From Phycicoccus sp. M110.8 (GTDB lineage: Bacteria > Actinomycetota > Actinomycetes > Actinomycetales > Dermatophilaceae), in the NCBI RefSeq assembly GCF_032464895.1, contig NZ_JAWDIC010000001.1, forward strand, positions 1,736,001 to 1,800,000: a stretch of DNA of 64,000 nt. Direction: 5' to 3'. Below the pieces are notes generated by a model. The model made no database searches. It was given only the letters and a program-made list of their open reading frames with translations, and was not told the DNA's origin. The position numbers were made by a program, and so were the translations under genes. Of this stretch, positions 41,390-47,205 are shown in pieces. How positions within the stretch are numbered: position 1 is the stretch's first letter; every line of letters starts with the position of its first letter.

Positions 41390-41695
41390 TCAGGGGCGCT
41401 GCGGCACCGGGGGCTCGGCCTCACGGGAGAGCCCGGGCGGCGTGGGCAGGGGGCGGCGCGGCTCGCGCACACCCGCGGACCCGTCGTCGCCACGGCCGCC
41501 CGCGGCATACGTCCCGACGAGGGCACGGCCACGCAGCCGGCGGTGCCGGAACACCGTGACCAGCCCGTGCCACGCGGGCTCGGGGATGGCCCGGCGCGCC
41601 GCCTGGACCGCCTCGGACGGGCTCGCCGCGGTGATGTGCGCCCGGAAGTCCCGGACCACCCGACCGTCACCCACGTGCACGTCGTACGTCGCCAT
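41390..41695 (-). CDS. Hypothetical protein with Arg/Pro-rich tail
   Basis: The ATG at 41695 (or GTG at 41701) gives ~101 aa. The first ~60 residues look like a compact alpha/beta domain (TYDVHVGDGRVVRDFRAHIT, SPSEAVQAARRAIP); the rest is disordered and rich in Arg, Pro and Gly. No family recognised and no ribosome-binding site is clear. It diverges from selA. Confidence 0.5.
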   Translation of the reverse strand: MATYDVHVGDGRVVRDFRAHITAASPSEAVQAARRAIPEPAWHGLVTVFRHRRLRGRALVGTYAAGGRGDDGSAGVREPRRPLPTPPGLSREAEPPVPQRP

Positions 41696-41767
41696 GGGCA
41701 CCAGCGTGCGCCGGAACGGCCCTGCTCACAAGGGCTTTGCCCGAACTGCTGCGCTAGCCTCGCAGGC

Positions 41768-43087
41768 ATGTCGCAGCCCGGACCCGTGGACGCACGCCGC
41801 CGGGTCCCCCGCACCGACGCCGTGCTCGCCGAGCCCGACCTGGCCGGGGCCGTCGCCCGCCTCGGCCGCGACCGCGTCAAGGAAGCCGTCCGCTCGGCCC
41901 AGCAGCTCGCGCGCGACGGAGCCATCGACCCGTCCGAGGTGGCCGCGGTGGCGCTCGCGTCCCTGCCGAGGCGGTCGACCTCGCTCACGCCCGTCGTCAA
42001 CGCCACGGGCGTCGTCGTCCACACCAACATCGGGCGGGCGCCCCTGTCCCCGGCAGCGGTCGAGGCCATGACGGCAGCGGCGGGGTACGTCGACGTCGAG
42101 CTCGACCTCGCGACCGCCCAGCGCTCACGGCGTGGCAGGGGCACCCTCGAGGCGCTGGTGGCGGCCGTCCCGGGCGCGGAGGCGGCGCTGGTCGTCAACA
42201 ACGGCGCGGCTGCGCTCGTCCTCGCCACCACCGCCCTGGCCGGGGACGGTCGCGAGGTCCTGGTGAGCCGGGGCGAGATGGTGGAGATCGGTGACGGGTT
42301 CCGGCTTCCCGACCTCATCGCGAGCACCGGTGCACGGCTGCGCGAGGTGGGGACGACGAACCGGACGACGCTGCAGGACTACGCCGCCGCGACGGGCCCC
42401 GCCACCGGCTGCGTCCTGAAGGTGCACCCCAGCAACTTCCGTGTCGAGGGGTTCACCTCGGCGGTCTCCGTCCGCGAGCTCGCGACGCTGGGGATCCCGG
42501 TCGTCCACGACATCGGCAGCGGCCTGCTGGCACCGCACCCGCTCCTGCCGGACGAGCCGGACGCGGCCACGGCCATCCGCGACGGAGCCTCCGTCGTCAC
42601 CTGCTCCGGCGACAAGCTGCTCGGCGGTCCCCAGGCGGGCATCGTCCTCGGCCGCGCCGACGTCGTCGAACGGCTGCGCCGGCACCCCCTCGCCCGGGCC
42701 GTGCGCTGCGACAAGACGACCCTGGCCGCGCTCGAGGCCACCCTGCGCGGGCCGCAGCCCCCGGTGTGGGAGTTCCTCGAGGCCGACGCCGACAACCTGC
42801 ACCAGCGGTGCGCTGCGCTCGCAGCCGGCCTGCCGGACGAGCTCGAGGCGTCCGTCGTCCCCAGTGCGGGCGTCGTCGGGGGCGGGGGCGCCCCGGGGCA
42901 GGTGCTTCCGGGATGGGCGGTGTCGCTGCCCGAGTGGGCCGCTGCCGACCTGCGCGCCCAGGACCCGCCCGTGCTGGCGCGGGTGGAGCGCGGGCGCTGC
43001 CTCGTCGACCTGCGGTGCGTCCCGCAGCAGGACGACCCCACGGTCGCCACGGCCCTGGCCCGGCTCGGGCACGGCCCGGCGCACTGA
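41768..43087 (+). CDS. selA: L-seryl-tRNA(Sec) selenium transferase
   Basis: This 439-aa PLP enzyme begins with the SelA N-terminal domain (VPRTDAVLAEPDL), then INV-type motifs NATGVVVHTNIGRAPLS and AALVVNNGAAALVLATTAL. The PLP lysine lies in TCSGDKLLGGPQAG. It converts Ser-tRNA(Sec) to Sec-tRNA(Sec) for selenoprotein synthesis. No selB, selD, selC (tRNA-Sec) or recognisable selenoprotein is in the window, so partners must be elsewhere. Confidence 0.95.
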   Translation: MSQPGPVDARRRVPRTDAVLAEPDLAGAVARLGRDRVKEAVRSAQQLARDGAIDPSEVAAVALASLPRRSTSLTPVVNATGVVVHTNIGRAPLSPAAVEAMTAAAGYVDVELDLATAQRSRRGRGTLEALVAAVPGAEAALVVNNGAAALVLATTALAGDGREVLVSRGEMVEIGDGFRLPDLIASTGARLREVGTTNRTTLQDYAAATGPATGCVLKVHPSNFRVEGFTSAVSVRELATLGIPVVHDIGSGLLAPHPLLPDEPDAATAIRDGASVVTCSGDKLLGGPQAGIVLGRADVVERLRRHPLARAVRCDKTTLAALEATLRGPQPPVWEFLEADADNLHQRCAALAAGLPDELEASVVPSAGVVGGGGAPGQVLPGWAVSLPEWAAADLRAQDPPVLARVERGRCLVDLRCVPQQDDPTVATALARLGHGPAH

Positions 43088-43093
43088 CGTCCG

Positions 43094-44503
43094 TCAGGCC
43101 GTGATGGTCCCGCCCTCGAACGTGCAGGTCAGCCGGCCGTCCCCGGTGGCCACGGTGTCGGTGACCGGGTAGCCGTAGCTGCCCGTCGCGCCCCCAGCGG
43201 CCTTCCACTGGGTGAGCACCGCCCCGTACACGCGGCGGGCCGCCCCGGAGCCGAGCGCCCACAGCTCACCCTTGGTGAACGTCTGCGAGGCCCCCCGACT
43301 GGTGGTGACTCGAGGACCGGAGGGGTAGGCGAGAACACCGGTCTCGCGACCGGCAGCCCTCCATGCAGCCCACATGACGCCAGTCACGACCTGCGTCGTC
43401 GTCTCGCGGGAGTCCGTGATGGCACCCCCCTGAAACGTCTGGATCCAGTAGTACTGGTCCGGCCCATACACCAACCCACTCGTGGGATACCCCAGCTCGC
43501 CGCGCTCCCGACCGCTGTCCCGCCACACGCGCCACCTCGTCGAGGTCACTGTCTGCTTGGTTGTCGACAGGCTGTCTGTGACCGCCCCGTTCTGAAACAG
43601 CTGGATCCAGCCGCTGTCCTTGAGGCCGAAGGTCAGATCGCTGGTCGGGTAACCGAGAATTCCGCGGAAAGCACCTTCCGCGACCCAGCTCGAGTGCGTC
43701 CAGTTGTTCATCGCCCGAGCACCGGTCGCGCTCGACCACACGATCCAGCCGCCTTGGTACGCGACAAAACGCCCTTTGCCGTCGCCGATCGCCTTTTCGG
43801 GGCCCGTGGATGCCCTGAGGAATGACCCCTGCTCCCCCAACGCCTTGTACTTGGCGGCGATCCCACCCCACTGCGGCAGCAGCGGCGAGCTGTGCTCGGC
43901 GGTGCGGTTGTCGCTGAGCGAGGTCGTCGTGCAGGCAGCCCACTTGTAGGGGGCGACGCAGCTCACGACGCGGCAGTGCACGCCGCCGGAGCACTTCACC
44001 TGGGTGTTGCACTGGCCGTACCGGAAGGCGTTGCAGCACACGCGACGCTGGTCGCAGGTCGCGGTCGAGCCGGTGCCGCACGAGCAGGACCAGCACTTGC
44101 TGTCACAGATGCCGTCGGTGCACCCGGTGCTGCACTTGGAGCACGACGCGTTGCAGTCGACGATGTACCGGTACCCGCCGCCGCACCACGACGAGTCGGC
44201 CGCCTTCCACCAGCCGGCCGCGAAGCTGCCGGGCGGGCAGGTGTTGACCCCCTTGTTCACCGTGGCGCAGAAGACGGTCCAGCCGCTCGACGCGGTGTTG
44301 CCGGGTCCGCAGATCGTGGCGTATGCCGCGACCGGCCGCAGGGCGTACTCCTTCGGCTTGGTGGCCAGGGCCGTCGCGGCCACGGTCGCCCCGAGCAGCA
44401 CGCCCCGGCGCGAGACGGGCCGCAGCCGCTGGGCCAGCCGGCTGACGACGCCGGCCATGCCGCCTGGGCCGGCTCCGGTGGTGAGGTCGTCGAGGGTGCT
44501 CAC
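43094..44503 (-). CDS. Tat-exported, cysteine-rich MADH-light-chain-like protein with LGFP repeats
   Basis: The GTG at 44503 gives 469 aa. A Tat signal (SRRGVLLGATVAATALA, 31-47) precedes a region with 20 cysteines (65-191). Its start recalls methylamine dehydrogenase light chain: FCATVNKGVNTCPPG, then WW at 98-99 and YRYIVDCNASC. The position matching the second TTQ tryptophan is not clearly conserved (VVSCVAPYKW), so a tryptophan tryptophylquinone cofactor cannot be assumed. About five LGFP repeats follow (205-469; for example ILGYPTSDLTFG, ELGYPTSGLVYG), a wall-binding repeat. The GTG overlaps the upstream gene's stop. The MauE- and MauD-like genes upstream suggest dedicated disulfide formation. 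Confidence 0.75.
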   Translation of the reverse strand: MSTLDDLTTGAGPGGMAGVVSRLAQRLRPVSRRGVLLGATVAATALATKPKEYALRPVAAYATICGPGNTASSGWTVFCATVNKGVNTCPPGSFAAGWWKAADSSWCGGGYRYIVDCNASCSKCSTGCTDGICDSKCWSCSCGTGSTATCDQRRVCCNAFRYGQCNTQVKCSGGVHCRVVSCVAPYKWAACTTTSLSDNRTAEHSSPLLPQWGGIAAKYKALGEQGSFLRASTGPEKAIGDGKGRFVAYQGGWIVWSSATGARAMNNWTHSSWVAEGAFRGILGYPTSDLTFGLKDSGWIQLFQNGAVTDSLSTTKQTVTSTRWRVWRDSGRERGELGYPTSGLVYGPDQYYWIQTFQGGAITDSRETTTQVVTGVMWAAWRAAGRETGVLAYPSGPRVTTSRGASQTFTKGELWALGSGAARRVYGAVLTQWKAAGGATGSYGYPVTDTVATGDGRLTCTFEGGTITA

Positions 44504-45015
44504 GGGCGGCCTCCCTGCCGGCGAAGGGTCTCGCGGTCGGTGATGTGCAGGGTCGAGACGAGCATCGCCGCCCGCCGGACGCTCGCCATCCGCCGCGCAT
44601 GGCTGCCGATCACGGTGAACAGGCAGAAGCCGCGACCGCCGGAGCTGAAGAAGTGCTGCGAGGCGCTCATCCCGGGCAGCGGCCGCTGCATCCGGTTGGG
44701 CGCGAACTGCGACGGCGCCAGCCGCGGCAGTCCCTGCCTCTCGAACAGCCCCTGGTCGGCGACCTCGGTGCCGTAGTCGACGAGCGCGACGAACACGTCG
44801 TCCGGCCCGAGCAGGTCGACGACGCCGGTGCCGAAGTCCTCGCGCACGGCGGGCAGCGGACGCGTGCAGGCGTGCAGCACCGGGCGGGTGACGTCCTGCT
44901 CGGCGTCCGGTGCGAGACGGGCCCCGGGCGCCGGCGGCTCGGCGCCCGGCTGGCGGGTCACCTCGACGTGCCACCCCCGTGGCGCGTCGGCCCGCAGGCC
45001 GTAGCGGTCAGCCAT
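44500..45015 (-). CDS. Hypothetical protein of the MADH-like cluster
   Basis: This 171-aa protein has no signal peptide or membrane helix. Visible segments are a VFVALVDYG strand-like stretch near 90 and a C-terminal basic region with LFTVIGSHARRMASVRRAAM. No family recognised. It lies 3 nt after the membrane protein gene and overlaps the LGFP gene by 4 nt, so it is part of the same operon and may be a cytosolic partner. Confidence 0.75.
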   Translation of the reverse strand: MADRYGLRADAPRGWHVEVTRQPGAEPPAPGARLAPDAEQDVTRPVLHACTRPLPAVREDFGTGVVDLLGPDDVFVALVDYGTEVADQGLFERQGLPRLAPSQFAPNRMQRPLPGMSASQHFFSSGGRGFCLFTVIGSHARRMASVRRAAMLVSTLHITDRETLRRQGGRP

Positions 45016-45018
45016 GCC

Positions 45019-45618
45019 TCACCCACTCCCGATCGAGGTGGCCAGCAGCACCGCCGCCGCACCGCCCAACGCCACTGTAGCCACGATGCGTGCCGGTTTT
45101 GCCCACCGTTCGACCCTTTCGAAGACGCGGTGCAGAGCCACGGGGTCGTCCACCCCTGCCATGAGCAGCGACGGCAGCGCCCGGACGAGGCCGAAGACCC
45201 CGCCGACGAGCAGACCCACGCGCACGTCGCCGGCGAGCGCCGCGAGCAGCACCACGGCATACGTCGTGGCGCTCGTGACGATCGTGACGAGGCCGAACCC
45301 GAGCTGGGCACCGAACCCCAGCCCCATCACCCAGCCGCGGTACTCGTCGAGCCAGGCGACGTCGACCTGGCGGCGCCACGACGGCAGCGCGGCGGCTCCG
45401 CGCAGGTCGAGGGCCAGCCCCACCAGCAGCAGGACGGCGACCAGGCCGACGGCCCAGGAGGAGGACCGGGCGGCATCGGGCACGAGCGCGCCGAGCAGGG
45501 AGGCGAGGGCGCCGAGGGCCAGGCCGCCGGCCAGCGATCCGGCGAGGTATGCCGTGGTGGTCAGCCACCAGCGGGAGTTGCGTGCCCGCTCCCCGAGCGG
45601 GCTGATGCTCGAGAGCAT
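45019..45618 (-). CDS. Polytopic membrane protein, possibly MauF/CcdA-like
   Basis: This 199-aa protein has about five to six hydrophobic helices (LAGSLAGGLALGALASLLGA, WAVGLVAVLLLVGLALDL, GLGFGAQLGFGLVTIVTSAT, VRVGLLVGGVFGLVRALPSL, IVATVALGGAAAVLLATSI). Layout and cluster position suggest the DsbD/CcdA-like electron carrier that MauF represents in methylamine operons, but no helix cysteine pair is seen, so that role is uncertain. Start ATG 45618. Confidence 0.65.
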   Translation of the reverse strand: MLSSISPLGERARNSRWWLTTTAYLAGSLAGGLALGALASLLGALVPDAARSSSWAVGLVAVLLLVGLALDLRGAAALPSWRRQVDVAWLDEYRGWVMGLGFGAQLGFGLVTIVTSATTYAVVLLAALAGDVRVGLLVGGVFGLVRALPSLLMAGVDDPVALHRVFERVERWAKPARIVATVALGGAAAVLLATSIGSG

Positions 45619-45627
45619 CGACTCGCC

Positions 45628-45708
45628 TCAAGGGGACCACGTGGCCCGGACGGCGGCGACGACCGCCATCGGGACCCCGAGGACGAGGGAGAGGGTGGTC
45701 GCGTCCAT
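45628..45708 (-). CDS. Possible 26-aa transmembrane peptide
   Basis: An ATG at 45708 opens 26 codons, MDATTLSLVLGVPMAVVAAV then RATWSP, in the 97-nt gap between the MauD-like and polytopic membrane genes. One helix is predicted. No good ribosome-binding site is seen, but the gap is otherwise unexplained. Confidence 0.35.
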   Translation of the reverse strand: MDATTLSLVLGVPMAVVAAVRATWSP

Positions 45709-45715
45709 CCGCAGG

Positions 45716-46672
45716 TCAGGAGTCGCGACCGGCGGGGTGGGGGTCGTGCGGCTGGTCCTGGTGGCCGTGGTGGTCGTGCCCGTGGCCGGCGTGGTCGTGC
45801 CCCGCGTGGTCATGGGCCGCGTGGTCGTGGTCGTGGTGGCGCGCGGACCCGTCGGCTGCCACGGGCTCGGGGTCCGGCGGCACGAACAGGCTGGGGTGGC
45901 CGGGCGTGATGCCCGACGCCCGCAGCTCGGCGTCGATCCGCGTCAGGCTGTCGCGGCCCCCGTCGTCACCGGGCGTGACGGGGCCCACGGCGCCAGGCCC
46001 TACCGCACCCGGACCCGAGCGGCCGGCGGCCACCCGCGCCTCGTCGGCGTCGGCCACGCCCTGCGCCATGAGGTCGCGGACCTGGGCCCAGGTCGTCGCG
46101 GATCCCTCGCCGGTGACGGTGCCGGCCTCGACGTAGACGAAGTAGGGCGAGCCGGGGATGTCGTAGTCCACCCACGCCCGGCTCGACTGCACGACCTCGA
46201 GCCGACCGGCGAGCGCCTTCAGCGCGCTCGGCGACTCCTCCTCCGGACCCTTGGCGACGACCACGAGACGGCCGTTTCCGGGCACGTCGACGTCGTGCTG
46301 GAACTCCTCCCAGAACGTCTGGCAGACACTGCAGCCGCTGGTGAGGAACGCGAGCAGGGTCCGGCTGCCCGGGGCCGTGACGTCGTGCCGGCGCTCGGTG
46401 CGGTCCAGGGCGGTGCCGACGACGTCGTGCCCCCGCGCGGAGTCGTGCCGGGTGGCAGGGACGACACCGCTCTCGAGCTCGACGGGCACCGGTCCCGGTG
46501 CCCCACCGCTGGTGGCACGGGTGACGCCGGTGTCGGCCTCCTTCTCGAGCTCGAGCCCGGCCCCGAGCTCGTGCAGTGCCCGGAGGATGAGCGCGTGGCT
46601 GCGCAGGAGGCCCAGCACCAGCAGGCCGAGCAGGACGATGGCGACGCCTTCGGCGACGACGGCGGCGAGCAT
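45716..46672 (-). CDS. MauD-like thioredoxin-fold protein with His-rich C-terminus
   Basis: The ATG at 46672 gives 318 aa. An N-terminal membrane anchor (AIVLLGLLVLGLLRSHALIL) precedes a TlpA/MauD-type thioredoxin domain (about 85-235) with a CSVC redox motif (C114, C117) and the cis-Pro segment GSPYFVYVEAG. The last ~45 residues are strikingly His-rich (HHDHDHAAHDHAGHDHAGHG) and probably bind metal ions. It begins 5 nt after the MauE-like gene. Inferred role: forming or shuffling disulfides in the 20-Cys LGFP protein. Confidence 0.82.
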   Translation of the reverse strand: MLAAVVAEGVAIVLLGLLVLGLLRSHALILRALHELGAGLELEKEADTGVTRATSGGAPGPVPVELESGVVPATRHDSARGHDVVGTALDRTERRHDVTAPGSRTLLAFLTSGCSVCQTFWEEFQHDVDVPGNGRLVVVAKGPEEESPSALKALAGRLEVVQSSRAWVDYDIPGSPYFVYVEAGTVTGEGSATTWAQVRDLMAQGVADADEARVAAGRSGPGAVGPGAVGPVTPGDDGGRDSLTRIDAELRASGITPGHPSLFVPPDPEPVAADGSARHHDHDHAAHDHAGHDHAGHGHDHHGHQDQPHDPHPAGRDS

Positions 46673-46677
46673 GCGGA

Positions 46678-47205
46678 TCAGCCCTTCGTGGTGCTGCGGA
46701 CGGCGGCGGGAGTGGTCGCGGGGAGCACGGCCATCACCTGCCAGGCGAGGAAGGCCACGACGACCGCGAGGCCCACCGTCGCCAGGGTGGCGCCGTCGAC
46801 CGCGCGCCAGACGCCGGCCGGGGGCGACACGGCGACGAGGGCGGCGACGAGGGCGGCGGCGCCGGTGAGCGCCGCGTGCGTGCGGGTCGCGGGGGTGTCC
46901 GGCTTGCCGAAGCAGCCGCACGAGCCCAGGACACCGCCGCGGGCCAGCACCCGCACGACGAACGCCGTGAAGAGCAGGTATGCCGCGGCCACGAGCCCGG
47001 CGGCATACCGGCCCGGGGCGAGCACCGCCCACAGGCCGACGAGCACCTCGCCGACGGCGAAGGCACGCACGAGCTGCCGGTGGAGCGGGAGCCCGGCGGT
47101 GCGCAGCGCGCGGACCAGCGGCAGCGGGTCGAGCACCTTGGGGACGCCGGCCACGACGAGCAGCCCCGCCGAGGCGAGGAACGGTCCGGCCACGACGTCC
47201 CACAT
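46678..47205 (-). CDS. MauE/DoxX-family redox membrane protein
   Basis: The ATG at 47205 gives 175 aa with four helices and the conserved first-helix VVAGVPKVLDPLPLVRAL. The MauE-type loop GSCGCFGKPD carries a CxC. MauE is needed with MauD for light-chain maturation in methylamine utilisation. First gene of the minus-strand operon running to the LGFP gene. The 115-nt gap before it must carry the promoter, but no clear boxes are seen. Confidence 0.85.
   Translation of the reverse strand: MWDVVAGPFLASAGLLVVAGVPKVLDPLPLVRALRTAGLPLHRQLVRAFAVGEVLVGLWAVLAPGRYAAGLVAAAYLLFTAFVVRVLARGGVLGSCGCFGKPDTPATRTHAALTGAAALVAALVAVSPPAGVWRAVDGATLATVGLAVVVAFLAWQVMAVLPATTPAAVRSTTKG

Follow-up and report, generated by a model that had tools for sequence, protein, structure and literature searches.

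Five minus-strand genes in a 64,000-nucleotide (nt) stretch of the Phycicoccus sp. M110.8 genome (hereafter the window, meaning the whole stretch analysed) probably encode a maturation system for an exported, cysteine-rich surface module, in which a homologue of MauF would be a selenoprotein. This reading is built on comparison: conservation of the cassette, homology to MauF, the position of the selenocysteine (Sec), and the presence of Sec machinery. Running from 47205 to 43094, the genes encode a MauE-like protein, a MauD-like protein, a MauF-like protein, a 171-amino-acid (aa) protein, and a cysteine-rich LGFP protein with a twin-arginine translocation (Tat) signal. A preliminary description of the window had counted six clustered genes. 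The clustering stands, and the number falls to five because a supposedly separate 26-aa peptide (45628-45708) and polytopic membrane protein (45019-45618) are halves of one frame, parted only by the TGA at 45628-45630. The features are as follows.

46678-47205, minus strand: MauE/DoxX-like redox membrane protein, 175 aa, with an SCGCFG motif (PF07291)
45716-46672, minus strand: MauD-like membrane-anchored thioredoxin-like protein, 318 aa, with GCSVC and a His-rich tail (by hhalign)
45019-45708, minus strand: MauF-like membrane protein, 229 aa at full length, with predicted selenocysteine 27 (TWSPUGESM; by read-through translation and hhalign)
45628-45630, minus strand: in-frame TGA read as selenocysteine, aligned with the MauF cysteine; only TGA or TGC in relatives
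45584-45619, minus strand: putative bacterial selenocysteine insertion sequence (SECIS), two adjacent hairpins (by covariation and fit to the published bacterial SECIS, or bSECIS, model)
44500-45015, minus strand: 171-aa conserved protein, a family without a name, no export signal seen; its 31 genomes (of 396) are exactly those with the Cys-rich module
43094-44503, minus strand: 469-aa Cys-rich wall protein, exported by Tat, with LGFP repeats at the C-terminus (RR signal, PF08310)
43931-44311, minus strand: Cys-rich module, residues 65-191, with 12 invariant Cys, W98-W99, RY..DCN, and FRYGQCN (59-sequence alignment)
43094-43888, minus strand: LGFP repeat region, cell-wall binding (PF08310, E 6.7e-32; phmmer match to 6swz/6sx4)
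41543-43087, plus strand: selA, L-seryl-tRNA(Sec) selenium transferase, convergent neighbour (TIGR00474; family match from near 41798)

Profile comparison identifies the cluster's membrane protein as a MauF homologue. An alignment of 25 members, covering the part downstream of the TGA, matches Paracoccus denitrificans MauF in hhalign at 97.8% (E 7e-13, 150 columns). Read-through gives one 229-aa chain, MDATTLSLVLGVPMAVVAAVRATWSP-U-GESMLSSISPLGER..., and the UGA sits exactly at the cysteine of the P. denitrificans WSPCG motif. Across the aligned site, P. denitrificans MauF (mau operon sequence from NC_008688) reads STWSPCGYSSIS and the window reads ATWSP[TGA]GESMLSSIS. The full-length Sec-containing protein has no NCBIfam or Pfam match; the MauF-like protein has a weak domain match, just below the cut-off, to the CcdA/DsbD thiol relays (PF13386, 23.4 bits). 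It shares with these relays a redox residue after a proline at the end of the first helix. Unlike them, it has a single redox residue, the Sec, and the window protein has no partner Cys. Its cysteine count is zero, so the Sec needs another protein as its exchange partner.

The evidence that the UGA specifies Sec, drawn from comparison of homologues, is strong. Among about 80 distinct homologues read, the codon is TGA at every readable locus except eight, which have TGC; TAA, TAG, or any third codon was found in none. The TGC carriers are P. denitrificans and seven actinobacterial genomes (G197, G219, G252, G482, G491, G499, and G133). The MauF-like gene of Thermomicrobium roseum has TGA too. 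SelA (TIGR00474, above the cut-off) is found in 40/40 UGA genomes versus 1/7 TGC genomes (Fisher p 6.5e-7). In three of the 40, the codon itself is truncated or masked in the assembly; these three, together with a few more whose codons were not individually read, were classed as UGA by family placement. The 60 nt upstream of the TGA are free of in-frame stops in 71/71 distinct sequences, and variation upstream of the UGA falls mainly at the third codon position (504:161:83). The selA gene of the window adjoins the cluster and scores 420 bits against TIGR00474 (cut-off, 268). The window genome also encodes selB, selD, and a tRNA-Sec with anticodon TCA, and its formate dehydrogenase reads ARI-U-HSSTV across an in-frame TGA. 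In this genome, selB, the tRNA-Sec gene, selD, and the selenocysteine formate dehydrogenase are grouped (L151, G000:C2, about 107-117 kb).

Two hairpins lie directly 3' of the UGA, at 45604-45619 and about 45584-45602. Their pairs covary: 89.6% of cells are paired, and the covariation of 0.196 compares with 0.059 in shuffled alignments (0/500) and with values no higher than 0.095 in slid controls. In the second substrate family, for example, GATGCU/AGCAUC is replaced by GATGGU/ACCAUC. The published bacterial model (PMC13188914) places a hairpin 16-37 nt past the UGA and requires its loop to begin with two G residues. The second hairpin fits this model: its 3-nt loop, GGN or GUC, lies at a distance of 33 nt from the UGA. 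In the window, the loop is GGG at 33 nt, with a folding energy of -14.9 kcal/mol. The model is satisfied in 64/71 UGA genes versus 1/8 TGC genes and in 31% of synonymous nulls that keep the same protein and the family's codons. One TGC carrier, G252, retains the SMLSSITP residues, yet its Ser codon TCG disrupts the first stem. Taken alone, the window sequence does not fold into an unusually stable RNA (z -0.54), so the SECIS claim rests on comparison. Rfam returned chance-level matches only for the UGA region.

A true stop at the TGA, which would leave a 26-aa leader-like membrane peptide and re-initiation at an ATG to yield a separate 199-aa protein, is very improbable. Most members do have an ATG four codons past the TGA, and two genes are what standard gene calling returns, but there is no downstream ATG in L089 and L125, and P. 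denitrificans MauF is a single chain across the corresponding point. Termination also sits badly with the exchange of TGA for TGC in homologues mostly lacking Sec machinery and never for TAA or TAG, with the way SelA presence follows TGA, with the covarying hairpins, and with protein-coding constraint that runs unbroken over the junction. The MauF of the cluster is thus read, with high probability and as part of the five-gene maturation system, as a selenium-containing membrane protein.

Like known bacterial selenoproteins, the MauF-like family combines an in-frame UGA, Sec/Cys homologue pairs, a bSECIS, and Sec machinery. A recent catalogue of 119 prokaryotic selenoprotein families (PMC13188914, 2026) holds no MauF, CcdA, or methylamine-related family; the nearest is TsoB, a rhodanese/DsbD fusion. 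A literature search whose coverage left out most subscription journals found no report linking MauF or MauE to selenoproteins. Sec-containing MauF appears to be a selenoprotein family absent from the catalogue and NCBIfam, and an earlier report elsewhere could exist. Standard gene calling truncates the family at the UGA. The Sec/Cys MauF pairs offer a natural comparison inside a thiol-disulfide membrane relay, and the role of MauF becomes directly testable.

The neighbouring genes named in the preliminary description are present. The MauE-like protein matches PF07291 (48.3 bits, E 1.5e-12) and aligns with P. denitrificans MauE at 89% in hhalign. The MauD-like protein, with its CxxC (CSVC) and His-rich tail, aligns with P. 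denitrificans MauD at 96% (E 3.8e-9). Across 24 relatives, the CGC of the MauE-like protein and the CxxC of the MauD-like protein are invariant, and the His tail is variable. The 171-aa protein, described as belonging to no recognised family, is where it was placed, as is the exported protein, for which 20 cysteines had been reported: 20 precede residue 205 and one more follows. A PADLOC search gave no match. The genome's second MauE/DoxX gene, considered as a rival partner, was rejected; it sits between trpA and a gene for a DsbA-like protein (L014, G000:C5:125380).

The cassette recurs across Actinomycetota. Named relatives carrying the Cys module number 37, from Intrasporangiaceae and neighbours (Phycicoccus, Pedococcus, Knoellia, Janibacter, and Nostocoides) and from metagenome-assembled genomes of Frankiales and Acidimicrobiia. 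In a survey of 37 independent loci that looked for the five cassette genes only, all five occur together in most loci not ended by a contig edge, L036 being the exception; their order varies and the set is kept. The clustering of the five genes is far beyond chance. The module occurs in 31 of 396 Actinomycetota genomes (about 8%) and the 171-aa protein in the identical 31, a distribution by which the latter is specific to the window's Cys-module family. MauF is found in all 31 and, with clearly weaker scores, in 32 more. Roughly one-sixth of the sampled Actinomycetota genomes thus have a member of the MauF-like family, and most members examined have predicted Sec. Among 16 loci fetched from the 32 further genomes, 14 encode a second Tat-exported family with 10 Cys (CGHxYTTGSCPHP...GGGWSRCC...DCC), mostly located between MauD and MauF (L110-L124, e.g., L115:6262-6870). 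No relation between this family and the window's Cys module is demonstrable by sequence. Because these loci hold a different Tat-exported protein, MauF, MauE, and MauD beside a Tat-exported Cys-rich protein form a general arrangement. A third Tat-exported Cys-rich kind, with 12 Cys and a long C-terminus, lies between MauD and a UGA-containing MauF at L125:4846-6243.

The exported protein starts with a GTG at 44503 and carries an RR signal. Its LGFP repeats match PF08310 at 104.5 bits over the whole protein and 110 bits over the C-terminal part, and in phmmer the region matches the C-terminal domain of mycoloyltransferase PS1 (6swz/6sx4). Across the 59 sequences, the invariant residues of the module are the twelve Cys, W98-W99, R112-Y113, D116, and FRYG; the remaining Trp are not invariant. 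The C-terminal part is exchanged among relatives, which have LGFP repeats, LGFP with CWB2, a ricin-type lectin, unnamed repeats, or nothing. This pattern suggests that the functional module stays constant while its surface anchors can be swapped. The AlphaFold model of the 171-aa protein has a predicted local distance difference test score (pLDDT) of 90.6. Its fold search gave no confident PDB match; the top hits, MucB, Tsi3, and LpqN, had E values of 0.03 or higher and were not used. The protein may serve the Cys-rich protein as a dedicated chaperone or a partner.

In the proposed mechanism, the Cys-rich module would be made as a precursor bearing a Tat signal. The dedicated 171-aa protein would probably retain this precursor in the cytosol, and the Tat pathway would export it. 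The UGA within mauF would be decoded as Sec through the SECIS hairpin directly downstream. The Sec of MauF would then exchange electrons with MauD and MauE across the membrane, and outside the cell this relay, homologous to MauF, MauE, and MauD, would install the six or so conserved disulfides of the module. The C-terminal domain, here LGFP, would fix the module to the envelope. The direction of electron flow, the order of steps, the part played by the 171-aa protein, and the final role of the surface module are the inferred elements of this scheme. On the simplest reading, the module serves in stable surface binding or electron transfer; the boldest would give it a new Trp-derived cofactor.

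Several observations weigh against this scheme. The TGC genome G219 carries SelA, and several SelA-positive genomes have no MauF, making the match between the two one-directional. Seven of the 71 UGA genes fall short of the strict SECIS thresholds. A second cysteine is missing from MauF, which puts the exchange partner outside the protein itself. In a few TGC genomes (G491 and G252), MauF is distant from the other cassette genes. At L036:6887-8010, the module is fused to a ricin-type lectin, and the MauE, MauD, MauF, and 171-aa genes are absent within 7 kb.

The preliminary description had likened the Cys-rich core to the light chain of methylamine dehydrogenase (MADH) and proposed that a wall-directed protein had taken over Mau maturation. 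The maturation link is borne out by the conserved set of MauF, MauE, and MauD, the latter two co-occurring with the Cys-rich protein in most of the 37 loci surveyed. The light-chain identity is not supported. Profile hidden Markov model and PDB searches with the module found no match. In hhalign, the best probability against light chains, 29.7%, includes the Tat leader and drops to 2.3% without it; the mature-part profile scores 22.5 versus 9-12 for reversed controls, yet reaches only 2-7% probability. The AlphaFold model of the module, built with 29 relatives (pLDDT 37), is too low in confidence for a fold search. PF02975, the light-chain family, is above the cut-off in 0/396 Actinomycetota genomes, and the window genome gave no match to it in a search without a working positive control. 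The module and the light chain share a Tat signal, about 12 Cys (forming six disulfides in the light chain), a CPPG-W-C-Y spacing, and a Trp aligned with the first position of the tryptophan tryptophylquinone (TTQ) cofactor in 59/59 members, the alignment being uncertain. They differ at the second cofactor position, which had been described as not obvious and is never Trp in the 59 members on the same uncertain alignment. The resemblance is suggestive of common descent. Homology to the light chain is possible and TTQ in the module unlikely; the module is inferred to be free of a MADH-type quinone cofactor.

The cassette resembles the P. denitrificans system (mauF-mauB-mauE-mauD-mauA) in setting MauF, MauE, and MauD homologues beside a small, Tat-exported, disulfide-rich protein. 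Unlike that system, it lacks heavy chain, amicyanin, and MauG, has Sec for Cys in MauF, and adds the 171-aa gene and wall or lectin domain fusions. The absence of heavy chain and MauG had been noted earlier, and genome searches agree: PF03150 (MauG) gave no match with working positive controls, and PF06433 (heavy chain) gave none in a search without a positive control. A divergent dehydrogenase for methylamine or another amine, in which a TTQ-bearing light chain has fused repeats acting as its heavy chain, is accordingly a very unlikely identity for the exported protein. The Tat signal, the C-P-P-G...W...C...Y pattern, the 12 Cys, the MauF, MauE, and MauD homologues, the weak profile signal over reversed controls, and the propeller-like look of some C-termini would suit it, but it must contend with the missing second Trp, the unmatched families (PF06433, PF02975, and PF03150, with working controls for the last only), and C-termini replaced by a lectin, CWB2, or nothing. 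Somewhat less improbable, and still unlikely, is an enzyme bearing a single-Trp cofactor (e.g., cysteine tryptophylquinone) or another W98-W99 crosslink in place of a structural protein. Such a cofactor would suit the invariance of W98 and W99 in 59/59 sequences while other Trp vary, and the occurrence of the 171-aa protein only alongside the Cys-module family. No cassette gene, in the survey limited to the five, resembles a known quinone-forming enzyme, which we take to include MauG and the radical SAM protein QhpD.

The favoured reading, a maturation cassette with a selenoprotein MauF, places the Mau maturation genes in a broader system that seemingly folds exported Cys-rich proteins beyond methylamine metabolism. 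In a much more tentative extension, Sec-containing MauF would define a selenium-dependent membrane route of general scope in Actinomycetota, by which several unrelated families of exported Cys-rich proteins would be oxidatively matured; the MADH system would be one Cys-based branch, and the WW pair of the module might carry a new Trp-derived cofactor. In Streptomyces, decRiPPter found MauE and MauD genes beside precursors with at least eight Cys and no other mau genes, suggested to be ribosomally synthesized and post-translationally modified peptides (PMC7794033). In the parts of that report consulted, such peptides are proposed, and MauF, selenocysteine, an LGFP protein, and the cassette are not described.

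A separate set of genes lies on the megaplasmid of T. roseum (L054, 2717-11349). It includes two light-chain-like genes in which both cofactor Trp positions are present and four similar hypothetical proteins resembling repeats or propellers, and MauE is fused to a protein of this kind. A MauD-like protein and the MauF-like gene with the in-frame TGA are encoded there as well. The set is possibly an uncharacterised amine dehydrogenase system.

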